From: Clavelina lepadiformis
Lineage: Eukaryota > Chordata > Ascidiacea > Aplousobranchia > Clavelinidae
Direction of reading: 5' to 3'
Assembly: GCF_947623445.1 (NCBI RefSeq)
Contig: NC_135244.1
Location: forward strand, 15,314,860 to 15,378,859
Length of the DNA: 64,000 bases
Shown piece after piece: positions 32,231 through 58,749 of the stretch. The position numbers were made by a program, and so were the translations under genes. Each line of letters starts with the position of its first letter. The stretch's first letter is position 1. A model generated the notes under the pieces. That model made no database searches, was not told where the DNA came from, and saw only the letters and a program-made list of their open reading frames with translations.

Positions 32231-35200
32231 ATGAAGGTGATATGTGCTGGTGCACCAAAAACAGGAACAAAGTCTTTAGCTAGAGCACTGAGAATTTTGG
32301 GCTATGACGCAGGTAGGTCCGCATTCTTCACATTCTGCGAATGTATGTTTAAGTTTTGGTGACATTTTTGCAAAAAATAAGTAGGCTACAGTTAAGCTTT
32401 TAATTGAGCCTTGATCTGGATCTGATCTTGTAAACTATCGCGTAATGAATTCCCTGATCTACCAGGCCATGTGGCAAGATACTCAATTCACGTGAGATCT
32501 GCACATGGCCACGTTTTCATTTGTGTTCATCGTGTAAGCTACAATTTATCAAGATCTTTTAGTGATTGTGTGCAGGGTTTTGTGTCAAACTTGTCTGAAG
32601 ACTTGTTTGTTTTTGGTATGATGTCATGCTTGACAATTGATTCCCTTTGTACTTTTTACGCACTCTATTTTTTTGTTCTAGAATTCACGTCTTAAATAAC
32701 CGGAATTTTTGTGAGAAATTTTGCTTCATAAATTTATTTTGCTTGCCAAGAATTATGGTTAGATGAGCTTATACCTCCCTAAAGCAATGTTTTTTACGAA
32801 GTGACTATTTCACCATATGTATGTCACGTAGCCTGTAGGGGTAGACGGTTAGTAGAATGCAAAAAGTGGATTTTAGCTTTATTAAAGCTTTTATTGGAGT
32901 TAAATTTAGATTAGAAGCTTTGCAAAATAGTTTCGAACGCATGATGTTTTTCTGGTGAAATAGTGGAAACCTATTTTTAATGTGTGAAATGGTATAGTCT
33001 ACGTATTAAGAACGTTTAAGAAAAAAAATCAATATTTTAAACAATGAAACATCACTACTTCATACTTGCAAGTTTGTTTGTTATAAGACTTGTTGTTTTT
33101 GTTAAATAAACAAAAATTTTCAGTTCATTACTGACAATTAAATCTGTTTTCACTTTTATGGTTTTTCTTGAGAAACGCTATCCGATCGTGTTTGGATGAT
33201 TTGCTCATGAAACCAAAAAGTGTGGATCGTTTTCCTACAGATCAAAAAACACTGCCCCAAGGCGAAAACAATTTGTAAACGTACTTCTATAAAATAAGCT
33301 AGACGTTTACTGCCATAGAAAACGCATGATCAAAACAGATGTCTTACTATACTCATACAAATGTTCAAATCAGATACATTGTATTTGATGACGAAATTAT
33401 CACGCGAAACATGTATCTTTCTTTGGATCATTTCCTAAAGTGGGCACCCATTCTTTACAAGACAACTAGAAAACTTAAAAAATTTCCATTACACTTCCTT
33501 AAATGAAAGGTATTTTTATGTTTAAAAAATATGGCTGGGTATGAACAACATTTAACAGTTTCTCATGTCATAACTGTTGCAGTGTATGATGTGGAAGAGG
33601 CTGCGGAGTTTGGTTTCGAGGAATGGGAGGATTTGATGAAGAACAGACAACCTGACATGAGAGTTTTACTCGACACCGTTTATTCCAACAATGTTGAGGC
33701 TGTCGTCGACATGCCGCATTCATATTTCTTTGACAGGTTCCTTGAACGGTGGCCAGATGCAAAGGTTAATTATTATTTATTGCTCTTTAAATAAACTGCA
33801 ATTGTTTGCCAAATAAGAAGAAAAACTGGCGTTATATTGTTTCAGAAAACATAGTTAATTACATTTATCAATGCACAACAATTTAACAAATCTGCCTTAT
33901 TTAAATGTTAATGATTTTCGTTGTAAATTACAATGAAAATAACCTAAACTTAACTCTTCAATAATGCTTTATAACAAACAACGCGTACTTTTGATAGGTT
34001 ATTTTATCCATACGTGATGAAGATGAATGGTTTCGCAGTTTCAAAGGAATGGTCGACCGAGCCGCCAAGGAGTATCCCTTTATTAGTTTGTTTCGTTCTC
34101 TTGCACCCTCAGTAAATCGGCTAATCGAATGGAACGTTTGGCTTATGAGAGTCACTGTCGTAAGTTGTTATCAAGGAAAATAACCTGAAAATATTTATTG
34201 GAGGACGCATTTTTGTATCAGAAAGAGAATAACGTCCTAGCTGGAATAAGTTCAAAATGGCTTAACTTAATACGATCTTGGTCTTAATCAATCCTTTGAT
34301 GGTCTGATTTTTGATAATTTTGTTGCCGTGTTCATTTATTTCGCTGATAAATTTATTACCGGCGTTTAATCGCCGATTTCTATAAGATGATTGAAACGTG
34401 CCGTTAATAACCAGTGAATGCTCACTTTACGTCGCTTCGGCTTCACCTCTTCTATCAAAGTCTATGATTATTTGGAATAGGGTTTTGTTTACTTAAAGTA
34501 TAGGCTATTTGGCATTTTCCCGTTAAGGAAGCGTACATTTGATTTATCACAAAATTATTTAAAAGTTAAATGCTAAATTTAGCATTTTCGAAATAAAATC
34601 AAGAAAACGTACGAATACATGGCAATGGTTACGTAATTTAGGTCGGTATGTCTTATTCATTAAATTATTAATACTAATTCAAAGCGGATAATTTTGTTTT
34701 TAGGGAATAGAAAAACCCGATGCGTTTGTATGGAAGACGTGGTATAGAAGACATAACAAGTTTGTTCAAGTTACCGTTCCTCCACAGCAACTTTTGGAAT
34801 ATCGAGTAAAAGAGGTAACCTGTTGAAAATATTTCGTGTTGAGATTCTCAAAGATCTCTTCTATGAACTATACTGCCTTATCATGGCAAAAGAGCATTTA
34901 AGTGTCCTCATAACCATCTTTTAAACTAAGCAGGGGGAAACTTTGTTTCCAGAGAGATAGCAATACCAAGATAAATCGAAACTAAGAGGTCAAATTAAAA
35001 CTGGAAAAAATCAACAATCTACTGTATGAAATGGTACACAATGTGAATGATGCTATATACGTAGTTCGACGCATGGGTAAATAGGAAACGCATTCCAGGC
35101 TTTGTTCAAAAAAACAGGTTCTGACAGTCTAATTCGAAAAAGAAGCTAGACCCATTAACTTTTGCCGTTGTTGGTAAACCACTAATGCGTTGACTTAGTG

Positions 35201-36770
35201 TTTGAAAAGGATACCCGAAACAGCGCAGAGTACTTGCAGTTTTAAAGGTAATTTTAAAGACAGCCAATGCCTAATAGTTCAGAAAGTTATCAAACGTCAA
35301 CAATTGAAAACTAGAACTTCCTATAAAGTTATATTTAAAGCTTTTTACTCCCCCAGGAAAAAAACAGGAACCATAGTTGAAGAAGCCAAACGCTATTACC
35401 GGAATACCGTAGGAATTTTTTCAACAAAGCACTGTGGCTCAGAAACTGTTCAGCTGACTGATGAGAGGAAATCCTTTTTTGCTGACTTCAATTATTAGTT
35501 TCGACTCAAGAGAATTTGAGAAATTTTATAAATTCTCAGCTGGCGGATTGTGTAGAAAAGTTGGATGCATAAGGACGCCGAGTGTTGATTTTAAAGCAAA
35601 AGCTGAATGCACAAAGTTTCTTTTGTATAAATGACAAGTGTATGTTTCTAACTCACAATACTTCAAATTTTTGGATGAAATTGAACCCGCCCTGCAAGAG
35701 GGTAGCACCAAAAGAATTCAAATTTTGGTTGGTCGACTTTCATACACATGTTGGAGCTGATGACCGCACATGGAAGTGTGTGATTGAATGGTATGATGAT
35801 GCAAAACCTAACGGATTGGAAAGGATCTTACCGCTACGTTGTATAACAGCGGTCTTAACATAAGGAGCGCACTTTCCGACGTTTTCTCTGGAGAAGACGT
35901 CCAAGAAAAAAATCGATAGTGATTAATAAATCAATGACCACCCAATTGTCGTCAACCTGCTCCCAATATCTCATAAAATCGATTGGTAGAATCTATTAGT
36001 CATAAATCATTATACAATTACCCTGAAGTTCCTGCCAGTGTTAAACAGGCAATGGTAATACGTCATCATAATACCCTAGAGAAAACTTTCCAAACAAGAT
36101 GTGTGCTTGCCATTACTGACCAGTAACCTAAAAGAACGGTGGGTCCACCAACAAACTGGTGGTACATATAACGTTTACCTCACTGACTTGGCCTAGTCAA
36201 GACCCGGTAGGCCTAGCTATGTCTTTTAGCAGCACTGGCAGTTATGGCAAAAGTCTGCAACTTGTTTGTAGGTTAAATAGCTGCTAGAGCTGTTATCCTC
36301 GCGATCCTCCCCGAAAGAGGATTCGGAAGAAAGTTAAGAGAGAGAGAGAGAGAAAGAGAGACAGACAGACAGAGAGATAATATGTGTGTCTTCGTGTCTC
36401 CGTGATATCATTGTCATAGTTTTTACTCCCCAGCATTTAGGCTTGCGGTAGCTTAGTTGAAACTTTGAAGCAAGCGTTTTGATGTAATATCTTTCTGTTT
36501 TTACAAATTTGTAAATATTTTGATATAAATTACACATATGTATTATACTTTTAGGGTTGGGCACCGTTGTGCAAATTTCTTGATAAACCAATTCCAAAGG
36601 ATGATTTTCCATTTGAAAACAAGGCTGGAATAGCTCACAACATTGCAAATAAGCTTATGCAAGATACTTGGATAGCGAAGAAAGCTTATAGAGAAATTAT
36701 TCTTGTTTTGACACTGCTGCCTGTGTTTTTTGCTTTCATTGTTGGATTCGTTTATTTTAATTTTATTTAA
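32231..36770 (+). CDS. Sulfotransferase-like P-loop protein, copy A
   Basis: A protein of the Sulfotransfer_4-type family (P-loop, PAPS-binding fold). Exons: 32231-32312, 33583-33764, 33998-34159, 34704-34814 and 36555-36770. The total is 753 bp, 250 aa, with all junctions in phase. Residues 1-15 (MKVICAGAPKTGTKS) hold the phosphate-binding loop for the PAPS 5' phosphosulfate. VVDMPHSYFF and the strand VILSIRDEDEWFRSF (from residue 89) are the family core, with the RDxxxW segment expected to contact the 3' phosphate. WKTWYRRHNKFV and GWAPLCKFLDKPIP (from residue 180) complete the domain. The last ~25 residues are one hydrophobic helix (LTLLPVFFAFIVGFVYF) with no N-terminal signal, so a tail-anchored protein with a cytosolic domain is inferred. 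The substrate is unknown. It is the first of four head-to-tail paralogues. Residue-level catalysis cannot be confirmed from sequence alone. Confidence 0.85.
36337..36378. repeat. (GA)n/(GACA)n simple repeat
   Basis: A purine-rich microsatellite in the last intron of copy A. Confidence 0.9.
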
Positions 36771-39700
36771 TTAGAAGCATGTATAAATTGCAACTACTGG
36801 TGATACCAGTGTTTATTGCTGTTTCAGCATGAGAGTTATTATAGAAAGTAATTTTATTTTTGTTACTATACAGTAGTATACTTGCAGGATAATCTGTTAA
36901 TCGAGTTTATTACAGTTATAGCTATTTGTTGCAGTTATAATCCAACTTGTTATATAGAATTATAGATTTATTACGAATCTATGATGGTTAAAACTAACAT
37001 TTCAATTAGATCTTTATAGCGCTATTGCTTATTGATATTTTATCTACCTTTCAAAAATTACAGAATTTCTGAACTTCTTTTTGATCATTGAATTTGGGAT
37101 TTTGCCAACTATGAATTTTTGATACTGTATCAACAATAGAAAGATTTTTATAATAAGTCTTCTATTGTTAACAGGGTACTGGAAAATGATTCCATAGTTC
37201 ATGTGGTAATTACATTATTGAGGCTTGGCAATTTTTTTTACAACAGATAAATTAAAACATCGTCTTTATAGGTGAAAAGTATTTTAATTGTACTTTAGAA
37301 AAACGTTTAATATTTGTTTGACGAGTGGCGTATTACACAGTCACAAAACAAATCCCTAACATCTAACAACCAGTCATATTGAATATGGTCAATTTTTTGC
37401 TGCAAAACGATGGTATCCTTCTTCAAGCATTATATAACGTACTAGCAGTAGAACTATAGGTAAATTGGTTGCAAAACAATTCTCAATTAAAATCACGGCA
37501 TCTACATCAATATTTGTGTTTGTATATTTTGGCTATCACATTTATCCAATTCTATTTACAGTATAAAAATCCTATCGTTTGTCTAAATTATACTAACACT
37601 TGTAAAATGTAAAGCGACAGTTTTGAGAACTGGTATTAAACCTTAACTTGCATAAGACATATCTTATGTTTATTCCGTAGTTTCTAAATCGCTCTCGCGT
37701 TCTTTTTGTGATGACGTTTTTCTTGTTACAGTTAATTAAAAGACTTACAGTTTTCCATAAAAGCTGCTAGTTCGTTAATGTCCAATGCTTATTTAGAAAA
37801 CTGTGTACCTCACTACAACACTTCGATGTACTGCGTCAATATGTTAACCGACGAAGAATATTTAATTGTATTTATTCAGATTATATCAATATCTAATGGT
37901 TATGTTTATTTATGATAACAAAACTGGACAGCATTCAATACTACAGTGAATTGAACTCCAGCTTCTCAATAAGCGTGTCTGTAGTCAGGCTTACATTCAG
38001 CAGTAAAAGATATCAACATAATTTACTTCGTCTACTGGAAATAGAATAACAGTCATTTCAACAGCAATAATTTAGCAGCATGTAGGCGATTACAAGCACG
38101 CCAAAAACTAGGTTGTGCAAAGGGAAGTGGACAGCGGCTTGAGATAAAATCACGTTTCGTTGTTTCATGATTTCTGTCTCCCGGCATAGCTAAATTTTAT
38201 GTAGCCTATGTATGGCTAGTGGTAGTACTAGTTTTTCGACGTCGTCCATAAAAAGGCTTCGCTTTCTTTGCTGCCACAAGCTACAGTTGTATGCGCATCA
38301 TTATAAGGTTTTAGGATCACTACCGACTGTAACTTTGGGGCGTTCAAAATAATCAACAAAAGTTGTAATTACACAACCACTATCAGTAACACTGTGATGA
38401 ACTGATAATAAACATTTTTATTTGTATTTGTTGGTAAATGCTTGGTTGGTAAATTGAACAAGTCAGCTTCAAATCGAACTTAATTTTTGAGATGGTAATG
38501 CAATAACGCGAAAAACCGTGGCGGATGCACAGTGGTGAATGAATTGTATCCAAGTTGGTCCATTTAATTTGTCATTTTGAAGCACTTTCAGTTTTTCTCC
38601 CTATCAATTTGCACTGCTCACTCGAACACAAATCCTACGATCGACCTGCTTCCAAAAAAAGGCTAGAATAGTCAATGCAGCTAGTTTTTTTTATAGGCAG
38701 CGTTAACCGTCTACCTTTGGTTGAACTTTAACTGCTAAATGGAAATGAAATGAAAATAATAACTCTTGTTATTGCTGCTGCGCTTAATGCTGCTTCAATA
38801 AAAATAAATTTGAAGCGTGTTCTGATGCAATATTATTTGCCGCCAGGAGAAAGACTGATTTGAGACTAAAAAGTCGCGGTGGACGTAGATGTTTACGTTT
38901 AGCCCTCTGGCTTTAACCATTACGTGCTATGCTGCAGTAATGTTTAATGCTTTGCAAATCTGTTTCGAAATACCGCAATATTGTGAAAGTTAGGTTTCAT
39001 AAAAACTGACACGAAAGGTATATAGCTTCGGCAGTAATGTATTCACGTAATGCACTAGAATAAACAGTATAAACAGCTTATTTGCTAACAAAAATAAACG
39101 AAAAGCTGCAGCGAGTTAACACTTGATTACGTTGCATAAAAGTGATAGTAAGCCTAAAGCAGTAACAAAAAGCTATTGGCGAAGCTCATAGAGCCAGTAA
39201 TGGAACATTTTACTTAATTTTCAAATGTATGTTATGGACGTATTACTGTTTTGCGATAACGTTAAAACGAATAGGTTTTACTCAATAACCGTTCACTTGG
39301 CAAGTATATGCACTAAGAAACGTGAAAGCGTTGATTGTTTCCTGTCGTCGCATATTCATATTGAAGCAGAAGACATTTTGTCGTAAACTTTCCTTGAGTT
39401 GTCGTTTTAAGATTTAAAGGCTTCCATGCATTATTTAGGCTACAAATTGAGTTTTTGTGATGTGGTCTATAAACGATCTTCTCGTATATAGCTTTGTCAT
39501 ATAGTTTTGAAAACGCATAGCTTCAAATCTGTTATATAGTACTACGTATAAGGTATTTTTGCCAAGATTTTAGAAAACGTCTGTTATTGTCATGACATCG
39601 TCAGTTGGGAACTGGCATTTCGGTCATATGTGCATTGTGCAGTATAGCTTGGCTAGTATTCGATTAGTAGCTAAGCTGAATACAGGATAAACGATCATGA

Positions 39701-40060
39701 AAATAAGGAAAACAACGTTTGATCCAATCTAAACACATAAAATTGTCAAAGTTTAGCGCATATCGTTTTACCGACTTTTAAGGCTTTTTGCAAGATTTAC
39801 GACATTGATCAGCGGATAACATTCTGCATAAGTACTCCATAAGCACCTTTACCAGCATCAAAGCATCAGTAAAAGAAGTCGATTAAAAATTGGACGGTGG
39901 CTCTTTCATCCGCCTACATGCTGATTTCAGTAAATAGTGCTTGAATTACGAATACGAAAATTGTAATCACCTGCACCCGTATATAGGATAATTGAAATTT
40001 CGTAGACGCCGTGACCTTGAGGTAATAATTACTTGGCCGAAAGTCGACGAACGTTTCAAG
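36771..40060. other. Intergenic between array copies A and B
   Basis: About 3.3 kb of AT-rich sequence with no exon of the sulfotransferase-like family and no other supported gene. The 23 bases immediately before the copy B start (CGAAAGTCGACGAACGTTTC plus AAG) are nearly repeated before copy D. Confidence 0.45.
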
Positions 40061-42278
40061 ATGAAAGTAATATGCGCCGGTGCACCAAAAACTGGAACGA
40101 AGTCAATTGCTAGAGCTTTAAGAATACTTGGATACAACTCAGGTTAGTGTGCAACTTGTTTATACGGGTAATATGCACATAACGATACGTTAACTATGCT
40201 TTCCTGTTTAAAGTGTGCAACCGTAATAATTAAACTTTCCGTGTTGGCACCGTAAAACAATTGAACAGGGTAGATATTTTAGGTAAATAATATTTTTCAA
40301 ATAATCACTTAAGTTATAAAGCTAAAACAAATTACTTCTGAAAGTAAGTTATAAGTTATTCCCTAAGGCGGTAAGTCTGATGCCAATTTAAAGCACTTGC
40401 ACTTCATGCTATAAACTATTGCTTCATGCTACAAACTATTACTATAAACTACCAAGTTTTTGTAACCTATAATCCACTTACGACAGGTTTATCCATTTAA
40501 AAATCTATTTTAATGCAATTGATGTTACGTGTACGTTTACAGTGTATGATGTGGAAGAAGCTATAGAATTTGGCTTCGAGGAATGGGAGGATTTGATGAA
40601 GAACAGACAACCTGACATGAAAGTTTTACTCGACACCGTTTATTCCAACAATGTTGAGGCTGTCGTCGACATGCCGCATTCATATTTCTTTGACAGGTTC
40701 CTTGAACGGTGGCCAGATGCAAAGGCAACTATAACCTATAACTATAATGGTAGTTTTGATAAATGTGCCGTGCCGTGTTTAGAATTAACGTTTCCTGTTA
40801 TGGGAATTATACTGCACAATTTCAACATCCAGTGATGTTTTATAGTCGTGTAACTTAAGGCTTATGGTAAACAGGGCTACATTTTAGGTAATTTTATCCA
40901 TACGTGATGAAGATGAATGGTTTCGCAGTTTTAAGGAAATGCTTGAACGAACCAACAAACAATATTCTTATTTCAGTTGGTTGCGTTCATTCTCTCCTTC
41001 TTTGAATCGACTTATCGGTTGGAATTTATGGCTATTTAAAGTTACGATGGTAAGTTTTTGCAAAATTAAATAAGCTAATAGCTGATTAAAACTAGTTAAT
41101 ACAAATCAATAAATCATTCTTTTAAGATTGTATCAGGTTATTCGATAACCTAAATGTGTTTGTCCAAACAGTTTTACTCGTATAGGATAAATATTCACAT
41201 ATATCATATACCAAGCACATAAGACTCATTATCAAGAAAATCTAAACCCCCATCAGTGCTACTTTAGGTAGGGTGAATGAAATTATCTATTTATGTTCAT
41301 AGATATATTTTAATAAAATAGGACAATTTTGTGTTCATATAGGGTATAGAAACACCCAACGCGTTCATATGGAAGACATGGTACAGAAGACATAACAAGT
41401 TTGTACAAGCTACCGTACCCCCAAAGAAGCTCTTAGAATATCATATAAAAGAAGTAACAGAAAATAATATTTTGTACTGGGAATGTCACAGGAAATTAAT
41501 TATATTATAGGCAGAGTCGTAATCAAGTCAGTGACCTACATCGAGACACTTGTTGCAAAAACTTGACTCAAGCCCTTGTCTAAGAAATTAACTTGAATGA
41601 TTTGACTTGATTCGACTCGAATCAGTCCTTGTTTATTAGGTTTGGGCAATAAGGTAAAGCAAATTTTTGTTTTGTCCAAACCCATTTAAGTGTACACCTT
41701 AAAATGAAGATTGTTTGTCTACGATCGCCTACCGGCCGGCAAAACGAAGTAAATTTTCAAAAATTTGAAAGCTTTTCTTGTTCACTCTTTATATCGCTTA
41801 GCTTTTAGGTATCAATTGAATTGACTCGAGACCTGTTTGGTAAACAATTCGACTTGACTCGAATCTTACTTGCTAAATAACTCGACTTGCCTCAAGTGAT
41901 TTCTGCCAATAGGCCCAATTTGACCTGCGACTATAGAGTTTGATGAGTTGGTTATGACTCTGATTATAAAACATAGTCTGCTTTGTTTTATTTGTAATTG
42001 AAAAGCAAGCAATAGAAAATAATAAATCCTTCTATTCTTATACATGTATTCTTTACTTCTAGGGTTGGGCACCGTTGTGCAAATTTCTTGATAAACCAAT
42101 TCCAAAGGATGATTTTCCATTTGAGAACAAGGCTGGAATAGCTCACAACATTGCAAACACGTTAATGGAAGATACTTGGATAGCAAAGAAAGCTTATAGA
42201 GAAATTATTCTTGCTATGACATTGTTGCCCGTGTTTGTTGCTTTCATTGTTGGACTTGTTTATTTCAATTTTTTCTGA
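40061..42278 (+). CDS. Sulfotransferase-like P-loop protein, copy B
   Basis: A second array member with the same five-exon plan: 40061-40142, 40543-40724, 40888-41049, 41343-41453 and 42063-42278 (753 bp, 250 aa). The P-loop is MKVICAGAPKTGTKS. The core VILSIRDEDEWFRSF, the C-terminal GWAPLCKFLDKPIP and a terminal hydrophobic helix (MTLLPVFVAFIVGLVYF) match copy A. Exon 2 after its first ~35 bases, the start of exon 3, and exon 5 are almost identical to copy A. The rest of exon 3 differs strongly. The end of exon 2 reads AAAG/GCAACT where copy A has AAAG/GTTAAT, so an intact protein requires a GC-AG intron. Without that splice, translation reads into the intron and stops at 40833-40835. A hAT-like MITE lies in the last intron. 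The substrate is unknown. Confidence 0.82.
41512..41962. mobile_element. hAT-like MITE in intron 4 of copy B
   Basis: The ends CAGAGTCGTAATCAA and (reverse complement of the right end) CAGAGTCATAACCAA match at 13 of 15 positions. The flanks ATTATAGG and ATTATAAA agree at 6 of 8 positions, consistent with an aged 8-bp hAT target duplication. The interior is made of degenerate TTGACTCGAATC-like words and has no transposase. Confidence 0.75.
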
Positions 42279-44925: not shown

Positions 44926-47301
44926 ATGAAAGTTATATGCGCTGGTGCGTCCAAAACTGGGACAAAATCTTTAGCGAAAGCTTTGAGAATCTTGGGTTAT
45001 AATGAAGGTAAACAGTGTCATGTTTTAAAAGTTACAATTATTTTCATATACAGCACTATTTGAGCTAAATAATAGTATTGCGATGATATTCAAAACATTT
45101 CTGTCCTTGTATTGCAGTGTATGACGCAGAAGAAGCGGCCGAGTTTGCATTTAAAGAATGGGAAGAAATCTGGCTGGGCAAACAAACTAGCTTAGACGTG
45201 ATACTTGATTCAGTCTATTCGAAAAACGTAGAGGCTGTCGTGGATATACCACATTCAGCTTTCTTTGAGCAGTTCTTGGAACGTTGGCCCGAGGCTAAGG
45301 TATAAGCTTAAACAGAAATCGGCAAAACCTTTTTCTTCCTTTCATTTTAGTGCCTAATTGATTTCTATAAAATAAACTTGCCTGTTCACTTCTTTTAAAT
45401 TGACAGCGATGGAAAGGCGGATCAGATCGGATTATATAAACACAATTTGTGTCTTGTTGTTTAATAGGACTTCAGTTGTATTAACATAAAATTTTTGTTT
45501 GATCTGAATTGAGTTGCCAGCGAAAATAATACTCAAGTCTTCATATAAAATCGGTTTCTTTTTTATGAAATACTTTTTTTAAATCACCATTTAAATTATT
45601 TCATTATTTTCATTCATTCAAATATTTTCACATTCGAAAAAAATGTTATGAATAGGAAAACTTAAACATCAAAAGTATAGCCTGTAATAGTGCGTTACGA
45701 GTATTCCTGATTTTGCTTATAGTATTAACGCATTACAAAAGATAAATCATAAAAACCAAGTTTGCTGTGACTGGGTATCTGTTATGATTGTAGAACTTGA
45801 CTTGATGATCATGATTGACCAGACTTGATTTGAAAATATAAGATAAAATGAATTTTCTGGATTTGCCCTTCACTGCTAATAACTTGACTTGGGTTACAAT
45901 CGTTATAACTTGTTTCCATCACTTTGTAAATTAGGCAATAAGCTATTTATATAAACTCGAGTGGTATCATATATACTGAACCTAACTAATTCATCATGCA
46001 TTGTAATAGGTTATTTTGACACTTCGTGACGAGGACGACTGGTTTCAAAGCTTCAAAAGTATGATAGACTGGGCTAATAACAAATACTGGCCCATCCACT
46101 ATCTTCGCTATATTTCACCAACCCTGAATCGAATGCTCAACTGGCAAGTCTGGCTATTCACAACGACAGTGGTAATGAGATGTGTTTTATTGCTTTTGAA
46201 GGCAACTGTTTTACCAAAACTTTTTGCGATACATGATCGTTTTTACGAGAGTCTTTCTGCGAATCCTTTTAAAACTTTCGTGTTTGTTTGTGTTTTGTTT
46301 TGGTTAAATACTGTTCGAAAAGCTCCTCAATGAGTTTTGTAACTTGTCAAGTTTTGAACTTGCTTTAAACGAAAATCCATTGAAAAAGGATCAGATTGTT
46401 TAGTTTTCAGTTAATATAATGATGGCGATAAAACCAGCTATACAAAGTTATTGATATAACCGGACAATTTGAAGCAAGTATCGCTTTCAAAACAGCACAA
46501 TAGAAATAAGAACGTGGAAGTCAAACGACGAAACTTTTATATTTTTTACTTGGATAGTTGTATCGACGCCAAGTTTGCCTTTTTTTTCTGAAAAGAACTT
46601 TTCTGTTTACTGTTTCTCATAAAAAAATATGATTAAATTTGAATCAAGGTAACATTTACATGCGCCTGCACCTGCCGATTTTTGAAGCTCAAAACAGTTG
46701 CTTTTTCCAAACAAAAAGTAGTTTAGGCCAGAATCCAAAGCCTTGTTTCGGCATCCCTTTATGATTTGGATTAGTATGTCTGTTCCATATTTCCAAAGGG
46801 TCCAGAGAAACCACATCCTTTTCTGTGGAAATGGTCTTACAGACGCCATAACAAATACGTAAAAGCGGTGGTACCATCGCAACAGCTGTTGGAGTATAGA
46901 GTGGCAGAGGTAATTAATACGATTATGAGACCTAAGACATGACTTATGTGTATAAAGTTTTCAAAGCATGTACAAGGACCTGCTCACTTATCTGCGTGTG
47001 ATATTTAACTTTGTATGTTCACCGATATGCTTCGGTCATTGGTAACTTTAGCCAAGCCATAACTATAATATAAAAATGACTTTATTCACAGGGTTGGCAA
47101 CCACTGTGCGAGTTTTTAGGGAAACCAGTACCAGGAGAAAAATTTCCGTTTGAGAACAGCGCCGACAGTGATGATAAACCTGCTGACAGAGTGATGCAAG
47201 AAAGCTGGATTGCGAAACAAATTGCCAAAGAACTTGGTATTGTGCTTGCTATTATTCCACTCTCGCTCGCAGTAGTGTTTGGATTGTATTATTATTTGTG
47301 A
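44926..47301 (+). CDS. Sulfotransferase-like P-loop protein, copy C
   Basis: A third array member. Exons: 44926-45007, 45118-45299, 46010-46171, 46799-46909 and 47092-47301 (747 bp, 248 aa), all with GT-AG junctions in phase. The P-loop is MKVICAGASKTGTKS (Ser replaces the Pro-side residue of the other copies). The core is VILTLRDEDDWFQSF, followed by WKWSYRRHNKYVKAVVPSQQ and GWQPLCEFLGKPVPG. The C-terminal hydrophobic helix (LAIIPLSLAVVFGLYYY) again predicts a tail anchor. It is more diverged from A and B than they are from each other, and shows no sign of recent exchange. An in-frame upstream ATG at 44848 exists, but alignment to the paralogues favours 44926. The substrate is unknown. Confidence 0.85.
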
Positions 47302-50300
47302 CTGCTTCTTTGCTTATTCGCTATTACGTTTTGTTTCATCAACGTTAACCGGAAGTTAACTTATGTTCTGTTTTCCAGCTTAATCAGTAAGCCATTTTAA
47401 ATGCGTTCAATTGCACGTAAAAAGCATGAAATTAATGCAATTTATGTCATAATTCTTTTCTGCTTTTATGATTTCACGCTCCATTGATTATTTATAATTT
47501 ATGTTAATTCAATCGTGTCAGTAATCTGCAACACGATTGTAAGTGGTATGTACATGCTGTTAATCGTTGAAAAGTTGTTGGCCTACCAACTTACATTTAT
47601 TGCAAGATACAAAAAGACTATTCTTATTCTTAATTTATAGCCAACTGTATACAGTAAATGTTTGCAGCGTGAGCATTTACAGAGCATTTTTACAAAAGGG
47701 CTTCAGTTTGATGTCCTCGAACATGTAACAAACAACGTTCACAGTTTTATGGAAAGTAAACTACCGTACTCTAAGGTTCTCTTAAAATGACATCATCATT
47801 GTACCAATTGGCAAAACTCCGAAGAATTCGCGGGTAACATAGTTCAAACCGGTTCAAACAGCAACTCACAGACTGCCCGCAATCAATAGATTGCGAAAAG
47901 GTTTCTCAACTGATAGTGACATGAAAACACAAGTGTGAAGCGGGGTCACTAACACTTTGAATAGAAGAGAGCATTTGGCGAAATATAGCACGTAAATGTA
48001 GGTTGTTGCATCTTGCACATGAAAAATGCCTTAATTTAAACGTGTATAAGTCGAAGTCGGCGTATTTGCTTTTTTCAACATTTTTTTCAAAGTTGCTTGA
48101 AGCTGTATTGTACTGATTTTCTTTTCTGGCAGAACGGGTTTAAAGGAGTTTGCTCTCCAGAAAAGCATTTAGAGTAATATGTACTGAAAGTGACTATTTT
48201 AACGAAAATAAATTGCAAGGAACGCTCGCAAAAATATAATTAGATTTAGGAGAAAGTATGCTTGAACGAAAGACGTTATTCTCCTATACAAAGCTTGAAT
48301 TAGAGTGTAATTTAAATGAAAACTTTGAGTTCAATTTAGGTTAGCATGTAATTTTAACTTAGTTTAAATCACTTCTTAAATAGGTCGAAAAGGTTTTGTA
48401 GTAGCGGCAAATTGATAAGAGTCTTTGTTAATTGAATGACCGCAGTAAGTAGACTCGACTGATTAAATTTTGCATTTATTTGTAAACCAATTAAGCTTTA
48501 GTAGTTGACATAAATGATTATATTGTTACAAAATAATACACCTAGCCATCTTTGCATGCAGATATTCTGTAGAACTGATGACTAATCAGAATCAATTATT
48601 CTCTTACAAAACGTATAATCTTTTTCTGGAAACTTCAAAACATCTGAAAAACAGTAAGAGAACTAAAGGTATTTGTTTACCCGTGTACAAAGACATCTTT
48701 ACTAATAGGATTATTTTATTATGAAACAATAATAAACAATAAAATTGATAAACTTGCCCTGTCACATGTCAGTTAAAAATCTAAATCATGTTTAGTAACA
48801 GTTACTTACGTCAAGTTCCCCTTTTTACATTAATCCTTTAAAAATGTATTAATCATTTACTGTGGTACATAATTGACGACCTCAGTATTCGAGGAACCTG
48901 TACAACACAGGTCATCAGCGTTCATCAGTGTTTTTGCTTAAGGCTTAATTTTTACATTTTGTTACAACTTATGAAAAAAGGTCACTGTGTACACGACGAA
49001 AACGGCATGATATTATGATCATCAGATCTAATAACTTTTCAATTTTTCACATTTTTTACAATACAGTATATCAAATAAAGAAACTGCTCCAAACACATTT
49101 AATACATTCTTTATTTGGGTTAAGCCTTTTTTCGTCGTCCGCCACACGAAGAGACGCAGTACTTTGAGTTTAAAGCCTTTTTAAGTATTGCTGTTTACAT
49201 ATAAATACAAATGTACAAGATAAAAAAAGAAATAGAAATTAAACGCAGTTTTTTTATTAAGGAATTCCAGTAATCTACGCTTCTACGACATGTTCTATTT
49301 AATTCACTGTGGTTCTATTAGTAAGAAATCGTTCTTTGCATTGATTCATTCTAATTGTCCCACAGGGTAGGTTATATATATGTATAGGTTGTAGGTAGCT
49401 TCAAATCAAACTTATATCTAAAGGAAACTTTTTAGCTATCTATATCTTGTATTCAGATATTGTGCGAGGAAATTGAAAATGACTATAACGTCTGAAAGTA
49501 AACAGTTTTGAAGAAACTTTATTTCAGAAAAATTGTTTTGCTAGTGTACTTTTAGCATTAAACGAAGAACAACGATTATTGTTGGTTTTGGGTTGCTCAG
49601 CTGACATTGCTTCATTTGCTTTGAAATACTTGCAGTAAAAACGTGATTGAATTTGTGATAAAACCCTGTTGACAAAGTTTTGAAACTGAAGCTGGTTAGT
49701 ATATAATTGAGGTATCGTACGCAAATTGCATGGTCGTTAATTATACTTTACTTTACACTCGCTCGGGTGTAGGCGGTAGCTCTTTTGCACATTGTTAAAA
49801 GTGTATACGATATTTATTAATTAGATTTTTTTGCATGCAGATTGCAGATCACTGGATAGCGTAGGAGAGCAGTCTGAACGTTTCTCACAACTTGAATGAA
49901 CTTATAGATAGCACGACGCAGATAAACACCACTAACGAGAGGTATATCTGCATAAAATAAATAATTATTAATATATTGCTTAGCCCACTGCATGCTTGCA
50001 CATGTTGCATAATATGGAGATATCGCCTGGGGCAAATATTTGCACACCATTTATTCTGTCTCGCGCCAACATTTATGGAAAGATTTTGTTGACCGAGCGC
50101 GAAGCGCCTGTTTGGCACCATTTGACCGTTTCAGCTTGTATTGTTCACAAAAGATTGTTGTCCGAGTTGTTGAACTACCAAATACGTCTAAAGACTTTGT
50201 TTACTTTGCGTTTTTTTGTGCTCGGATAACCTCATGCACTAAAATATGCTACGGACTAACAAATGTTTTGAACTATACGAAACGAATGCAACCTTAATTC

Positions 50301-51095
50301 ACACTTGTCGATCAAGTACCCATGGCAATTTAAGTTCCTGCAAACAAATAGCGTCCAGCGACGATGCACCAATGGCGAATCATGTCACGATAACGAGCAA
50401 ACAAAGCTGTTGTGTTATCATTAACGTTACACAAAGTTATGTCATTGGAATATAAAGCAACCTTAATTCAAACTCGCTGGTCAAATATTTTCGACAACTT
50501 GTGTCCCATATTTTACACTCAATTATGGCCACTATGCGTTGTGAATTCCTATCTGGCGAACAAATAAAAACGGTTGCCGCTGCCTTATAAATTGCCGGCT
50601 GCTAAATGCAATTGCACAAATTCGAAGTGATAAAATGTTGATATAAAAACTTGTTTTGAACTTGAGCGCTTGCAAAAGTTTATTCTATAGACACCTTTCG
50701 TTATTAGAACGTTATAGTCGTAATAACTATACGGTATGGCCGTGCAGATATAAATATGATACGCGGTACGGGTGGGGGTAGCATACGTGATGCAGACGTA
50801 GAATAATACAATTTCAGCTTTAATGAACAGGTGACTTCACTCTAAGCTGCTCAGTTAAAAATATCATTCTGCCAATCTTTTGCAAGCTTTTGAATATCGA
50901 ACAGCTGATGACATTCATTTGGGCGGGTGAAAAACGCTGACAGAGAGTGGGACGGCCTACCTTTAACTTGGCCTTTGTGCTGACCTGATTAAAACGTGCT
51001 GTGAATCCGAAAAAGGTTTTAATCAGTAGACTTCATTGGCATTCCGCAGACCGCTCTGTCTTGAGGTTTCACCGAAAGTCGACAAACGTTTCAAG
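47302..51095. other. Intergenic between array copies C and D
   Basis: About 3.8 kb. Overlapping open frames on both strands at 49816-50297 lie in a slightly GC-richer patch, but neither shows a domain nor splice partners. No array exon was found here. Confidence 0.4.
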
Positions 51096-54000
51096 ATGAA
51101 AGTAATATGCGCCGGTGCACCAAAAACTGGAACAAAGTCAATCGCTAGAGCTCTTAGAATACTCGGATACGATGCAGGTTAGTGTTAATCGTTTGATTTA
51201 AAAGTGTCATAAAAGAAAGCTGTGCTGTAATTATTATTGATAAATGGACACATTTTCGACAAACAAATTTTACGGGTTGTTGTGAACACATTGATATATT
51301 TTCCTAAAAACTTATGCTTGTTATATCTGTGTAATCGTATGAGCTGTAAAACCAGCTATTCTGGGTAAAAGTTAAATTTCCTAGTCACGTTTGCAGGATA
51401 AATTACACGCTGTACAACAAGCAGTTTTATGGATGAAAGCCAATTGCGGTTTATCTTGCGGCTGGCGAATTAAGTGTTTAAAACGTTCGAGCTGCAGTCA
51501 AGCAGAATTACTATGAACTCCAGTTTCATAACTATTAGAATTACATCTACTTTCGCAAACTATATATAAACCTGGTGGTTTTGACTAAACTGAAGTAATT
51601 GTCCTACGGCAAAAGCACGCGTTTTAGCTGGAATTCATTAATAATATCATGAATTGAAATCTTTATTACCTAGAACAAAGGTAAATTACGTGTTACGTAA
51701 ACAATTTTTATAAGAATATGTACTTATACAAGTAGAAAAGGTTACGTAAGGAGCGTTTTCAAAGTATAAACCGAATCGATGACATAAACCGCAGTTTGCA
51801 TTCCATGAAAGTACCTATACATGGTGCCGTATGTACATCATCCTACTAATTTGCTGTACGGTAGAAATGTTAGTTTTATACAGTTTATATTTGCAAATTA
51901 AACACAATCACTCAATGCATCTCAGAAAATCTGGGAATTTCTGATTCAAAACCTATTCTGTGCATGCTAAGTGCAATGTTTCGTGAAAGGTTTATTTTTA
52001 GCTCGTTGTTCACCTGCAGCGCCAGCGAAGCGTATCTCCTGAGCGTTTCACTGTTGCTCGGTAGCCCTATCAAATTTCAATTTTTGCTAATTTAACCTTA
52101 CTGGTTACCGTTTTCAGGTAAATCTTCTGAGTATTTGCTGATGTGGCTTGTTGTCTGTAACTTTAGACCACCAGCTAAAAAAATCAACCAGACCCCGTTC
52201 CATTTTATATTTTTATGTTGGATTTCCTTTTTTAGGCCTATAGACAAAGTTATAATTTGTGTAGCCGTAGAACAAAAAAACTGGCACACTGTATGTGCGA
52301 TGACGTACAGTCGTAAACTATAGGTTATCACTGGTAAAATACTTCATTGCAAGTTTTACGTAATGTTTCTTGCGAAATTGTTTGGTTTTAAAGTTTCAAA
52401 CTGACACAGATATCAATGAAAACCTTTTAAAAGGGCTTCCTTTTCCCCACTAACAATGTAGTCCTAAGAAGGGAGTTTACTTGACTACAATGCGCAAGTT
52501 AGGACACTGTAGTATTGTACTACCGGTGTCTCCTTTTCGCAGGGCAACTTAGTCTACCGGTATTGCAAACAATAGGCCCTACTTTGTTATTTTTGATGTT
52601 TGTGATGGAATGCGTTGTTTCATAATCTGGTCAAACCACTTAGTGAAATGAACATATTGCATAAGTGACCTATTTATTTCATCCGATGCAACGCGGACGC
52701 AACCAAGTACAAAAGTATGGAGCCAACTTGGTATAGCTTTTCACCGCTCGCGCAAAGTGACCAAGTTGATGAAAGATATTCTAAGACAAACTAAGCACAC
52801 AAATCAAAAATAAACATGTTTCTTAGAAAAAGGCACGTTAATATTTTACAAGACATTGTTCTTGAAAACAAGCAAAAATCTTAGAAATAAGTACGAAATG
52901 ATAACCCTGCCTATAGGCTACAGCTGCAAAGATATTATCTTTTAATTGAACGTCCAAGTCTCCTGTGGAATGTCCGTGCAGGCTTTCATATGTGCGGCGC
53001 AAAATTCGGCATTCCGCTTATACTTCTTTAAGAAAAACTAAATATTGATGAGTGTATCAGTGTATGCTTGGTTCGTGGAAGTCTGACGTCGTGAATGTGC
53101 GAGTGAATGTTTTATTTTATTTACTTTTTAGTTGGGCTACGCTGAAAATAGTGATTTTTGTCACTTTATCACAACCCATGGCATATATGAATACGAATCC
53201 AAAACGTTTGCACGTTCTAGTTTTCATTCAATAAAAAGAAAAAAGGATTTTGCAAATAACCTCATAAAACGAAATTAAACGCGATTCCCTTTGCTTTTAT
53301 TATCGCGCGAGCTGTTTTGGCGTAGGCTACCGTTCGTACCCAAACATGTGGACTACAAACAAAGCACTTCACACTTTTAAGTTTAAATTTGAAATCCTAA
53401 TTTGAAACTAATCTCCAGTTTGTTTCGTTAAATCAAGAAGTTAGTATAAAATTTTTAACTTAAAAACGGTTTATTTCTCCTCAAAAAGGTCACGCGGCCC
53501 GTTGTTAAAGATAGGTGGTTATAGATTACGAGAAAAGATACGAAAAATTTGATATCACTTGTTTAGGGTTAAATTTAATCATATACGTTCGTAAAAAAAC
53601 AAAAAATCATACGTTTGAAGTTATTTTTTACAGGTTTCTTCTTAACCTATCTGAAATGTTATAACATAATAACTCAAACCTTACCTAAATCTACCTTATA
53701 AGTTACTGTAATTTAAATCTACTTTCAATTAAACGCTAAATAGCTAAAATCCATTTTTTGCATACACCCATTCTTCTGAAGCTAATCAAATTACCTATCT
53801 AGCTAACAACGGGCAGTGTGACCTACTTCGGTGAAATACTCACTTTCCGTTTTCTAAGCTTGTGCTCAACTGTTGCAATAGACCAATGGACAACGGTTTT
53901 TATTTTTTTTCATATTTCTCCCTTATTAATCACAAACGTTTTCAAATCCTCTCCAACATAAATTTGCAATAACACGAATCACTGAATACAATGTGAAGTC

Positions 54001-57000
54001 ATAATGAAAATAGCGTGGCAAATGATAGGCACCGGTAGTAGATAAAAACAACTTGGCAACAGTAGACACCGGTTAATACATCCACCTCGGGCCAGCTGAT
54101 TTTGGATGTAATAAGCGGTGGTTGTAATAACCGAATAAAGAAACAATGCCACTAAACAACCCTCTGGGAGAAAAAACGCAATCATTGAATTTGCTGTATG
54201 TATTCAACACAGAAAAACTTGTGCAACGAGGTTTGTCTAGGTGGGAAAGTCTTGATTTCTTCATACCGCAATGTATGTGCTGCTTCATCTAACTACAATG
54301 ACTGCTGTTCTAACACACTCGGTTTGAATACCGGTAGATAGAGTGGTGGCTGGATGCTATAAGCGATGAACTAAGCGGTGGCTGGATGCAATAACCAAGG
54401 TTTTGATAATGAGAAAGGTAAAGGAAAATTCCTTTCCAAGCAATTTGGACGTAATAAGCTATTGTTTGCATTAACCGTCGATGTATTACGCGATATCTAC
54501 TGTATTTATTCCGGTGAAAAACTTGAACAAATGAAAACGTGTGCTAATACTAAAAAAAATTGTTTACTAAATTAATAATACATACAGTCTATACACCAAT
54601 AGCTCACTTAAGGATGTATTCACAGCTTGAGTAAGTGCTTTAACTGGTAAATAGACCTAACGTTTATTAGCAATATGATGTGGGCCAAAAGCAATAAACC
54701 CATGTTTCTCTTTAGTTTTCTCAATCCTTCCCTGTTTCCTTCCTAAGCCAAATTTTCTCCCCAAAAAATTTAAATTGCTCTTATGTTGAGCCAAGTGGCT
54801 GTCGTTGAGAATCACTGCAATAAACCCTTACCTTGTGTGTTACCATCTCCATTTTGTGAGTGGCAAGATTTTTTCATTAGCCCTTGCTTAACTATTGAAT
54901 ATGTCGAAACACTTTGATTCTTTTTGTAAGCATTTTGGGCATCGGATTGTAAATATTTTACTTAAGTGAGTATCGTATGAAGTTTTTTACAGAAAAAAAT
55001 TTCGAGAAAATATTGCCTTGCTTTTATTTTACAGCGATGCTACGCAATTAATTTCTTTGATATGATGTTACGGACACGAAAAGCAATGGAGCATGCAACG
55101 TAAAATGCGTAATAGTTTGCTTGGTACGACCCTTTCATACACGTCATTTCTGAGCACGATTTAAGCCTTTTCGGCTTTGTCACTTTTTCCCATTGTTTAG
55201 CGCATGCTAATAAAAACTAGATTGATATTTTTCGTCTCCATCACGCTTTTGACAAAAAATAAAAAGATGGAATGACATTTGTTATGTTCGCCAACGGAAC
55301 GCAAAATTAAAAAAGAAAGTGAGGCACCACCGGGGTTCGAACCCGGGATCTCCTGTTTACTAGACAGGCGCTTTGCCGCTAAGCCATGGCGCCACGACTG
55401 AATTTGGGACTAAAACCTAATCATATACGTGAGATGCTTCTTTTGCAAGAAAGAATAATAGAAATTTCACTTTGTGCCGACTTACTGTTACTTTGTGTGG
55501 AAAGATGTGAGGATGTTCATTTAAAAAATTTATCTCAGAAGAAGAAACCGTTGCATTAGGATTACTGCATTCTTCTTAATGATATATGGTGAATGACTGC
55601 AAATATAAAAATATATTAAGAAAACTTTTACATTGTAAGAAACATAACTTTTACGTAGTGTACGACATAGAAGAAGCAATGGAATTTGCTTTTGAGGAAT
55701 GGGAAGACGTATGGGAAGGAAGGAAATCTGATCTCAGTGAAATAATGACAAAAGTGTATTCCAAAGGTGTAGAAGCGATTGTTGACATGCCACATTCACA
55801 CTTCTTTGACCATTTTTTGGAAGAATGGCCGAAGGCAAAGGTGCGAAACTTTAATCATAACTTCACACAATTTCAAGATTATTATCATTGATTTATTCTG
55901 GCCTCTAGACTGAAATGTCTTAGTGCTGGTCAAAGATAATTGCAAACAATGATCGTTGTTCATGCTTATTGTTGATTATTTTGGGTTCATATTTGTATTG
56001 ATAGGATTGGGCTATTGTGTAACAGCATAATGAGGTTAAATGCATTTGGCATATATTTCTATGGAAGTTTGGCATTCTGCTATGACTTTATTTTACATAA
56101 AGCAAGCCTGTAATTAAAAACCTTCTCTGAAACGAACTAAGCCGATTCTTTCCAACAACAAACATTTATTTTAAAATTTCAATGCATTTTATTTTCCAAG
56201 TTGGCTAATTAAATTTTTATTTGACATACCTATGAAATTGGGTACTCAAATCACCAAAATCGGTGACTCAGAATATACGTACACATTTTCTTAGTACGCC
56301 TGAAGAAGCAAGCTTATCTTTGCGAAAGCTCGTGTAGAAGAATAAAAAATAAAGGTAACCTTCAGAATGCCAACCTATATCTTATTTTTTATTTTAATTC
56401 AGAATATACGGTAATTGTGAGTGGAGATCGCCACTCAACACTATTGAGTTGGGTCTGTTTTTCCAAGAAAATTATGGGGTTGGGTTTTTGATCTGGAATT
56501 GAGTAAGGAGTTAAAGTTTAAGTTTTGATCAGCACTTAAGTTAAGTTTTTGATATCCACTTTGAAAAACTCCAAACTGGGAAAAATGTTACACAAACATT
56601 TAAAATGATTTAAAAAACATATTTTTAGAGAAAAAGAAAATGAAATAAATAAAGTAGAGGCACCACCGGGGTTCGAACCCGGGATCTCCTGTTTACTAGA
56701 CAGGCGCTTTGCCGCTAAGCCATGGCGCCCTGTTCAGACAGCGCATAACAAAGTGATTATATAAACCCTGACACCCACTATTTCTAAAATCACTTCAGCA
56801 CTTCTATATTTCCGAATTGTACCAGGGAAATTTGATCTTGAAATAAAATTAAGCGCATTAAGCTTTAGTACGTTACATTGACAAAAAATTGCACGCGAAA
56901 AGTTGTCAATAATTTTCAATAGCTTGGAATGGATACTTCTATTGTTTATATTGTTTATGTTAAGTTCGTCAAACACAGTCAGGCCTCGTTTATCCGCAAG

Positions 57001-58749
57001 TCAAAAAACGAAAATCCCGGTATCCGGCATGTAAATGTAACTGCTCTAAAAGGAACGTATTTCTTCCCATACAGTTCACCTATTTTTATTTGGAAACCTT
57101 GGTATTCAACTCCGACGTGGAAATTTAAAAGCGGATATGTCAAATCAATAGAAAAGCATCTGCTAATCCGGATCACGGTATAAACGAAACGTATTTATAC
57201 ATCATACTCTCATACTTGTCACGCTTCAATGTTTGTTTTACGCGCAGTCATTGACCAATTTTCTAAATTCTTTTGCTTAATCCGTCATTTTAGACGCAAT
57301 GTTGGATCTTTAATACAGTGTTTTGTGCTTTAATCTGTAGCCTAAACCTTAATTGTAGTAAATGCTTACACAGAAATTCTTCCGATTTCGATTATCTGGT
57401 TATACCTCGATAAACCGACATTTTTCAACGAAACAAGGTGGTCCCGATTAGCAATGTCTGACTGTATATAGCAACCAATCGACTTTCCTAAACATTACTG
57501 TTCAAAATTAACTCATACTTTTACAACTACTGTATAACAAACTCTTGAAAAAAAAATAACGAAACCAGTTGCTCAAACTAGTACACACTTGGAGGTTGCG
57601 CTTTTTAGATTTTTTGCATAAGCTTAGGCTATACTCAAGTAAAGCACTTAGTCTATGTGTATTATCTATACACAAATTCATGGGTTTGACGTTTCATGGT
57701 ACCTTACGCTTTTTGTTAACATGTAGGCTAGAATTGATTGATTGATAAATTGATATACCTTATAACTGCTATATTTCATAATACATTTTTTCCACAGGTC
57801 ATTTTGACGATAAGAGACACGGAGGAGTGGTTTGAAAGCTATAAAACAATGGTTCAGCGAGCTGAGAAAGACTACGGACCCCTACGTATATTTTACTACC
57901 TTTCTCCATCAAGCAGAAGGTTAATTAAATGGTGCGAGTATCTATCCACAGTTACTTCGGTAGGTGCCTTGTCATTAAACAACAGTTTTTGTCGTACATT
58001 TTATCACAAGTGCAACGTTCAGCCTTCACCCCGTTTTATCCTCAGGGATGCGTTAAACCAAAGCCATTTTTTTGGAAAACTTGGTTTGTACGCCACAACA
58101 ACTTTGTCAGGACATCGGTGCCGTCATCGCAACTTCTAGAATTTGACGTTAAGGAGGTTCGTAGTTCGCTTTCCTTTGTAAAAATATTTGTATATTATTT
58201 TAAGTTTAACCAAAAATATATTAAGGATTTAGCTTAACCGAACAACCGAATAACTCTGTGTTGAATTTTATAGGTTACCTTTAGTGTTTGTTTTGCACCA
58301 AACACACATATCGGCAGTATAGCACACAACTTATTTGTTTGCTTTAGTAGCCTATACATGTCTCACTATATGCTGGTTGATAACCTTTTGCATAGTAGGT
58401 TACGCAACGTTGAATATTGATAAAACAAACCACAGGTCAAGGAGTCAAAAGCTTTACTTATGCTTCTATGGGCTAAAATGAAGCCCTTTACTGATATGAT
58501 TTTTATTACTTCCACATTTTTCTACATCGCATTTGACAGGGTTGGAAACCACTCTGCAAATTTCTTGATAAACCTGTTCCTGATCAGCCATTTCCTTGTG
58601 AAAATCAAGCCGGTTGTAAACGCAATATTGCCGACAGAATGCTTCAGGATACATGGATTGCCAAAAAAATGTTGCGAGAAATACAATGCTGCATCATAGC
58701 TGTTTTTCTCTTAATTTTCACGTCACTGTTTTACATGTTTTATTATTAA
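51096..58749 (+). CDS. Sulfotransferase-like P-loop protein, copy D
   Basis: A fourth array member. Exons: 51096-51177, 55659-55840, 57798-57959, 58046-58156 and 58540-58749 (747 bp, 248 aa). Phases match throughout. Exon 1 (MKVICAGAPKTGTKS) and the 23 bases before it closely resemble copy B. Exons 2-5 are as divergent as copy C: VYDIEEAMEFAFEEWED, VILTIRDTEEWFESY, WKTWFVRHNNFV and GWKPLCKFLDKPVPDQ, with a terminal hydrophobic helix (IIAVFLLIFTSLFYMFYY). Intron 1 is 4.5 kb, far longer than the other introns 1 (0.1-1.3 kb). It holds a MITE and a tRNA-Thr gene, and intron 2 holds a second tRNA-Thr. It is therefore possible that exon 1 belongs to a separate truncated copy and that D's own first exon was lost. 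cDNA would decide. Confidence 0.75.
53487..53824. mobile_element. MITE in intron 1 of copy D
   Basis: 338 bp with long inverted ends. The left end AGGTCACGCGGCCCGTTGTT and the right end (reverse complement) AGGTCACACTGCCCGTTGTT match at 18 of 20 positions, and both continue into GATAGGT. The interior is AT-rich with no ORF, and includes GTTATAACATAATAA, also seen at 265-300. The superfamily is not clear from the ends. Confidence 0.85.
55322..55393 (-). tRNA. tRNA-Thr (anticodon AGT), copy 1
   Basis: The minus strand folds as a cloverleaf. The acceptor GGCGCCA pairs with TGGTGCC (one G-U), the anticodon stem is CCTGT/ACAGG with loop CTAGTAA (anticodon AGT), and the T arm is CCCGGGTTCGAACCCCGG with a perfect B box (GGTTCGAACCC). 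It is close to animal tRNA-Thr-AGT. A T-run (CTTTTTT) downstream on the minus strand can end Pol III transcription. It lies antisense in intron 1 of array copy D. Confidence 0.95.
56297..56400 (+). repeat. Dispersed repeat resembling a Penelope-like terminus
   Basis: CTGAAGAAGCAAGC...TTTGCGAAAGC has the CTGANGA / short stem / GAAA layout seen in the terminal repeats of the Penelope-like element at 61233-63760. The bases that follow (GCGAAAGCTCGTGT, then AATAAAA, AACCTT, AGA.TGCCAA and CCTATATC words) are shared with a second copy at 25388-25460. Confidence 0.45.
56658..56729 (-). tRNA. tRNA-Thr (anticodon AGT), copy 2
   Basis: Identical in sequence to the tRNA at 55322-55393, 1.3 kb away in the same orientation. 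The flanks differ. T-rich runs (TTTTCTTTTT) lie about 20-30 bases downstream. It is antisense in intron 2 of array copy D. Confidence 0.95.
56976..57464. mobile_element. pogo/Tigger-like MITE in intron 2 of copy D
   Basis: The left end CAGTCAGGCCTCGTTTATCC resembles pogo/Tigger termini. The right end, reverse complemented, reads CAGTCAGACATTGCTAATCG. The right flank is TA and the left flank is CA, so the TA duplication is degraded on one side. No transposase is present. Confidence 0.6.

Follow-up and report, generated by a model that had tools for sequence, protein, structure and literature searches.

Tail-anchored, cytosol-facing Sulfotransfer_4 proteins predicted from a tandem gene array of the ascidian Clavelina lepadiformis

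The membrane-bound sulfotransferases known from animals are lumenal and the cytosolic ones soluble, and a gene array of the ascidian Clavelina lepadiformis raises the question of whether a sulfotransferase may be both membrane-held and cytosol-facing. The array lies in a window of 64,000 nucleotides (RefSeq assembly GCF_947623445.1, contig NC_135244.1, positions 15,314,860 to 15,378,859), where positions 32231-58749 (+) hold four genes, g1 to g4, all head-to-tail, each encoding a Sulfotransfer_4 domain followed by a hydrophobic C-terminal helix. The joint reading proposed here, with a probability of about 0.7, is that the four products are small-molecule sulfotransferases dependent on 3'-phosphoadenosine 5'-phosphosulfate (PAPS), tail-anchored with the catalytic domain facing the cytosol, and that their acceptor pocket sits at the membrane and takes lipophilic alcohols.

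A preliminary description of the window, made from the letters alone, had seen in these proteins a PAPS-type Sulfotransfer_4 domain beginning at the P-loop, and Pfam bears out the domain: PF17784 matches residues 2-203/204 of all four proteins (E 1.7e-56 to 9.3e-55; 186-192 bits against a curated cut-off of 22.8) and is covered from profile position 1 to 212/213 of 215. Sulfotransfer_4 ranks far ahead of all other Pfam families, and PF00685 (Sulfotransfer_1) gave no match at E 0.01 in any of the four. The P-loop (pattern GxxKTGTKS, residues 7-15), with which the domain begins, is taken as the putative 5'-phosphosulfate-binding loop. Among 34 aligned tail-bearing models from the genome, K10-T-G-T13, Asp70, Arg94, His159 and the domain-end motif W-PLC-FL...FP..N show no variation, and Ser102 occurs in 97%; Arg94 and Ser102 are presumably the 3'-phosphate residues, by analogy. 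Exon 3 encodes the least conserved portion of the core in the same alignment. The solved sequence relatives of the domain are Cpz8, SgdX2 and the schistosome sulfotransferases; in the schistosome enzyme SmSULT, with which Asp70 aligns at Asp91, the side chain is placed for a hydrogen bond to the acceptor hydroxyl, according to the portion of the structural account at hand (PMC4618941). Kinship to enzymes solved with adenosine 3',5'-bisphosphate (PAP), together with the conserved cofactor residues, supports a domain of the PAPS-using type, so that this part of the preliminary description stands as to relationship and residues, with PAPS binding itself a prediction. ATP-sulfurylase exons are present in the genome.

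There is only a slim chance that the genes encode inactive or re-purposed P-loop proteins, or are in part pseudogenes (g2 with its GC splice donor, g4 with its borrowed first exon). Signs of such decay appear elsewhere in the family, in two copies with in-frame stops that lie on the minus strand amid a cluster of otherwise open copies (C6:17086340 and C6:17100937) and in one with a short tail (C6:490563); AAA_18 matches weakly, under its cut-off, in g4 and in none of the other three, and the fold is also that of shikimate and adenylate kinases, at lower Z. Against it, none of the four window proteins has lost the cofactor positions or the acceptor aspartate, the Sulfotransfer_4 match stands far above any other, and the ratio of nonsynonymous to synonymous substitution rates between g1 and g2 is 0.14 (dN 0.083, dS 0.577), a value in keeping with constrained coding genes.

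The single C-terminal hydrophobic helix of the preliminary description is likewise confirmed. The final 22-24 residues of g1 to g4 are uncharged, with no residues beyond the uncharged run, and the best 19-residue Kyte-Doolittle mean (KD19) is 2.36-2.94 in the tail versus 0.46-0.79 in the core; 0, 4, 5 and 4 of 5000 shuffled versions of g1, g2, g3 and g4, respectively, reached the tail value. By definition a tail-anchored protein has a single helix no more than about 30 residues from its C-terminus; all four window proteins have this arrangement, as do the 30 other usable tail-bearing models of the genome, with 0-28 residues after the run.

Comparison with the rest of the genome and with bacteria indicates that the layout, which had been presented as a property of the tandem family, is not peculiar to it. 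In the genome (209.06 Mb in 95 contigs, the window being part of contig 5), a search with Pfam listed at least 112 further first-exon matches, possibly with pseudogenes among them; the window genes, whose first exon is split, fall outside this list. Models were built for 42 genes (36 of the 112 listed loci, two split-exon copies, L025 and L026, and the four window genes), of which 35 were usable and seven were dropped for stops (two), a locus end (one) or a missing domain-end motif (five, one model having two of these defects); the motif was defined strictly, and hydrophobic tails are in fact present in two of the models dropped (C6:17108574 and C6:17772258). A hydrophobic tail occurs in 34 of the 35 usable models, or 30 of 31 outside the window (four of them weak). 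The remaining usable model, C6:490563, was left out of the 34-model alignment. Each of these 34 tails is at least 43 residues long and contains 13-25 consecutive uncharged residues (at least 15 in 33 models), and KD19 is at least 1.5 in 30. The letters of the helix columns have diverged (top-residue frequency 0.38), yet the uncharged hydrophobic run is retained. An architecture unique to the window cluster was thus ruled out by the genome models and by the bacterial relatives described below.

The first exon measures 252-258 nt in 35 of the 36 modelled copies in which it is single; the window genes form with L025 and L026 a separate clade (support of 96 in the Shimodaira-Hasegawa-like approximate likelihood-ratio test, SH-aLRT) in which it is split in two. 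L025 (C6:4550000-4559000) and L026 (C5:8627000-8633000), remote from the window, have an additional Val following the start Met. Four first-exon matches at C2:24337364-24361873, spaced 8,084-8,087 bases apart, look like a recent tandem duplication. PF00685 is also represented in the genome, by 85 exon matches. Glyco_hydro_6, a family to be expected in a tunicate, had no match, but the controls gave none either, and such a gene may be hidden by introns.

When a collection of 84,980 species genomes was scanned with the animal alignment, 287 relatives were confirmed, of which the best 80, all bacterial, were retained. A hydrophobic C-terminal helix (KD19 cut 1.6) was found in 34 of these 80; this proportion is not an unbiased frequency, because the query carried the tail and only the best matches were kept. 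The tail-bearing relatives belong to Actinomycetota, Pseudomonadota, Chloroflexota, Cyanobacteriota, Myxococcota and Fidelibacterota, with one from Desulfuromonadaceae and one unplaced. In a quick tree calculated with the tails removed (107 rows: 80 bacterial and 27 ascidian, eight of the 35 genome models being omitted as near-copies or defective), the ascidian rows form a single clade (SH-aLRT 99), presence or absence of the tail requires five changes versus a mean of 34.7 when the no-tail labels are shuffled, and one branch, supported at 82%, has 40 of the 46 tail-less rows on the same side. The tree is unrooted, so that gain and loss of the tail look alike in it, and support is weak for 36 of its 104 inner branches. 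On the simplest reading of these sequences, the anchored form is old. No NCBIfam model matched any of five proteins scanned, four of them bacterial and tail-bearing. In the predicted model of one bacterial relative (242 residues), a beta strand begins at residue 3 and the last helix extends to residue 241, and the matches to solved chains cover chiefly residues 1-222, with 28-33% identity to the schistosome entries.

These observations bear on a second explanation, that the proteins are soluble enzymes resembling the cytosolic sulfotransferases (SULTs), with the tail packed within the protein or a dimer, or lying along a membrane without crossing it. Consistent with this, the solved relatives were crystallised as soluble proteins, a strongly hydrophobic tail is missing in the majority of the bacterial relatives retained, and four tails of the genome are weakly hydrophobic. 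It is nevertheless improbable: all four window proteins end in a strongly hydrophobic, uncharged stretch of 22-24 residues, the helix of the bacterial model runs on beyond the part matched by solved chains, and the hydrophobic run has been kept while its letters changed.

The side of the membrane depends on the N-terminus. The preliminary description had reported no signal peptide, and indeed no hydrophobic N-terminus or N-terminal anchor is seen in the four models, the Kyte-Doolittle peak of the first 40 residues being 0.29-0.35. For g1 this holds fully: the frame is closed by a stop 33 nt upstream of the ATG, with no AG acceptor between, and therefore no upstream coding exon with a standard acceptor is possible. 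For g2 to g4 the upstream sequence would admit such an exon: g2 and g4 have an AG immediately before the ATG and frames open for 69 and 66 nt upstream, respectively, and in g3 the open frame extends over 99 nt and contains several AGs. Of 35 other genes tested, five are closed in the same way as g1 when an AG within the stop codon is counted as a possible acceptor. A GPI-anchor signal was also considered and rejected; it would presumably need a signal peptide, of which none was seen.

The preliminary description had also called the topology implied by a C-terminal anchor unusual, but such an anchor has a precedent on a sulfotransferase: plant TPST, a type I protein, has a C-terminal transmembrane domain, as stated in the part of its description available (PMC4082320), and the topology claim therefore depends on the missing signal peptide, not on the anchor. 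Should an unseen upstream exon supply a signal peptide, the window proteins would be lumenal type I enzymes, the helix anchoring a domain within the lumen of the endoplasmic reticulum (ER) or Golgi as in plant TPST. The open upstream frames of g2, g3 and g4 leave room for such an exon, but g1 and five other genes are closed, the start Met is invariant in 12 aligned genome copies and is matched by Met in 16 of 26 aligned bacterial tail-bearing rows, and the first strand of the bacterial model begins at residue 3; lumenal enzymes are thus highly improbable. The cytosol-facing, tail-anchored topology that we infer for g1 to g4 from their predicted proteins is well supported.

Under the tail-anchored reading, the C-terminal helix would insert the proteins into a cytosol-facing membrane, most likely that of the ER, and the catalytic domain would stay in the cytosol, where PAPS is made. 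In the predicted model of the bacterial relative, the start of the tail helix coincides with the lining of the acceptor pocket in the schistosome enzyme; by extension, the helix that lines the pocket in the soluble schistosome enzyme would continue, three to five turns on, into the anchor of the window proteins. A pocket-lining helix that runs into the anchor would therefore place the pocket beside the membrane surface and let it take lipophilic alcohols partitioned in the membrane. The acceptors favoured on this model are compounds that partition into the membrane, for example fatty alcohols, sterols or the like, the class being a guess from context. As the genes duplicated in tandem, divergence of exon 3, which encodes much of the putative pocket, may have broadened the set of acceptors, the PAPS site remaining fixed. 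Ascidians contain aliphatic (alkyl) sulfates, some in remarkable amounts, in the excerpts available (PMC6780655, PMC6268736), and sulfated steroids are described in partial sources as ascidian sperm attractants; these compounds are context, not evidence for the function of g1 to g4.

Several points weigh against this reading. The bacterial relatives without the tail number 46 of 80, and therefore the chemistry needs no tail. Weak peaks (KD19 1.13-1.35) occur in 4 of the 34 genome tails, and in three of the 34 models the core peak exceeds that of the tail. Upstream stops do not exclude a further coding exon for g2, g3, g4 and 30 of the 35 other genes. The pocket-to-anchor argument is drawn from sequence alignments plus the model of a single bacterial protein; the four window genes are known from genomic sequence alone. 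The neighbours of the tail-bearing bacterial loci, among which 20 of 151 open reading frames of at least 100 aa were scanned, revealed no shared context and named no substrate, so that nothing in them links the anchor to lipid substrates; the scan covered tail-bearing loci, the 226 neighbours of tail-less loci lying outside it. A shared bacterial neighbourhood naming a substrate was accordingly discarded, as just X-Pro peptidase-like (L033, L039 and L053) and AMP-binding (L039 and L053) proteins recurred.

The preliminary description of the array as four head-to-tail genes of one five-exon plan encoding 248-250 aa agrees with the models obtained by joining exons at splice sites (Table 1). Exons 1 to 4 measure 82, 182, 162 and 111 nt in all four genes, and the last exon, including the stop codon, 216 nt in g1 and g2 or 210 nt in g3 and g4. 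As a check, a spliced aligner given solely the first 196 residues of g3 recovered identical exons for g1, g3 and g4; for g2 it initially ran into g3, and returned identical exons once the stretch was bounded before g3. All introns are GT-AG, with the sole exception of g2 intron 2 (40725-40887), which starts with GC. Between g1 and g2, exons 2 and 5 are 96% and 92% identical, and exons 1, 3 and 4 are 77%, 73% and 81% identical; between g2 and g4, compared over exons 1-4, exon 1 is 90% identical and exons 2, 3 and 4 are 65, 51 and 57% identical (exon 2, 70% by local BLAST alignment). This patchwork among g1, g2 and g4, in which exons at 96% and 73% adjoin, is suggestive of gene conversion in exon-sized tracts in the array. 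The model of g4 carries the caveat that a g2-like exon 1 is joined to diverged exons 2-4 over a 4.5-kb intron.

Table 1. Positions in the window of the four genes and of the protein features discussed
Feature	Positions	Strand	Description	Basis
g1	32231-36770	+	250 aa; exons 32231-32312, 33583-33764, 33998-34159, 34704-34814, 36555-36770	splice-site joining and spliced aligner
g2	40061-42278	+	250 aa; exons 40061-40142, 40543-40724, 40888-41049, 41343-41453, 42063-42278; GC donor, intron 2	splice-site joining and spliced aligner
g3	44926-47301	+	248 aa; exons 44926-45007, 45118-45299, 46010-46171, 46799-46909, 47092-47301	splice-site joining and spliced aligner
g4	51096-58749	+	248 aa; exons 51096-51177, 55659-55840, 57798-57959, 58046-58156, 58540-58749; exon 1 near-match of that of g2	splice-site joining and spliced aligner
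g1 P-loop	32249-32275	+	GAPKTGTKS, residues 7-15; similar motif in exon 1 of g2, g3 and g4	sequence
g1 Asp70	33708-33710	+	aligned with SmSULT Asp91	
g1 C-terminal hydrophobic helix	36696-36767	+	residues 227-250	Kyte-Doolittle
g2 C-terminal hydrophobic helix	42204-42275	+	residues 227-250	Kyte-Doolittle
g3 C-terminal hydrophobic helix	47233-47298	+	residues 227-248	Kyte-Doolittle
g4 C-terminal hydrophobic helix	58681-58746	+	residues 227-248	Kyte-Doolittle

Introns 1 and 2 of g4 contain, on the opposite strand, two near-identical tRNA-Thr (AGT) genes (55321-55393 and 56657-56729, both minus strand), which account for a repeated open frame in these introns. Elsewhere in the window, open frames on the minus strand resemble, as judged by eye, a portion of a C-type lectin domain (1630-2040), a cathepsin B exon (16691-17035) and retroelement fragments (29317-29691 and 61518-61868).

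The family, fold and chemistry of Sulfotransfer_4 are already known. No description of a tail-anchored Sulfotransfer_4 protein was found in the literature searched, which covered few subscription journals; automatic transmembrane annotation of tail-bearing members presumably exists in public databases. Nor were sulfotransferases for the aliphatic or steroid sulfates of ascidians found named in that literature, part of which was available as excerpts. A cytosol-facing, membrane-held class, if real, would sulfate membrane lipids on the side opposite to that of the lumenal enzymes, and a PAPS transporter would be unnecessary. Candidates for alkyl and steroid sulfation in ascidians would naturally be sought in a large family such as this one, in which the PAPS site is fixed and the acceptor region diverges. 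The more general proposition, that Sulfotransfer_4 holds an old membrane-bound branch, in several bacterial phyla and animals, which sulfates lipids at the cytosolic face, its more than 110 loci here making the ascidian aliphatic and steroid sulfates, is tentative and rather unlikely to hold as a whole.

The closest known systems compare with the window proteins as follows. Cytosolic SULTs (PF00685) are cytosolic enzymes that use PAPS on small-molecule acceptors and are not known to have a membrane anchor; the window proteins, in contrast, match Sulfotransfer_4, not PF00685, and have a hydrophobic tail. Golgi carbohydrate sulfotransferases are type II proteins with an N-terminal anchor and a lumenal domain, whereas the window models have no N-terminal anchor, and an upstream exon is excluded for g1 only. 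Plant TPST acts on the lumenal side and belongs to a sequence family unrelated to Sulfotransfer_4; it resembles the window proteins as a sulfotransferase with a C-terminal anchor and differs from g1 in its signal peptide, which is excluded there. The fungal aryl sulfotransferases belong to PF00685, a different family from Sulfotransfer_4, in the part of the report available (PMC11677658). The Streptomyces proteins Cpz8 (PDB 9kf1, 9kf2 with PAP; with a role in caprazamycin synthesis according to the title of the structure entry) and SgdX2 (8y9p) have chains of 212 and 256 residues, and the part that aligns to the window proteins stops at the domain end. SmSULT-OR of schistosomes (PDB 4mua, 4mub and 5byk), which is PAPS-dependent according to the portion of its description at hand (PMC4618941), is related across the whole domain, the P-loop, Arg94, Asp70 (SmSULT Asp91) and the domain-end GW-PLC-FL...N being conserved in the window family; it differs in that the same portion mentions no hydrophobic membrane anchor. 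The 34 tail-bearing bacterial Sulfotransfer_4 proteins differ from the window proteins in being encoded by single-frame genes and in sequence (29-40% identity in the best segment), but share with them the domain, a short linker, one helix with few residues after it, and a similar length. As single-frame forms, these bacterial relatives are amenable to study in ordinary laboratory hosts.

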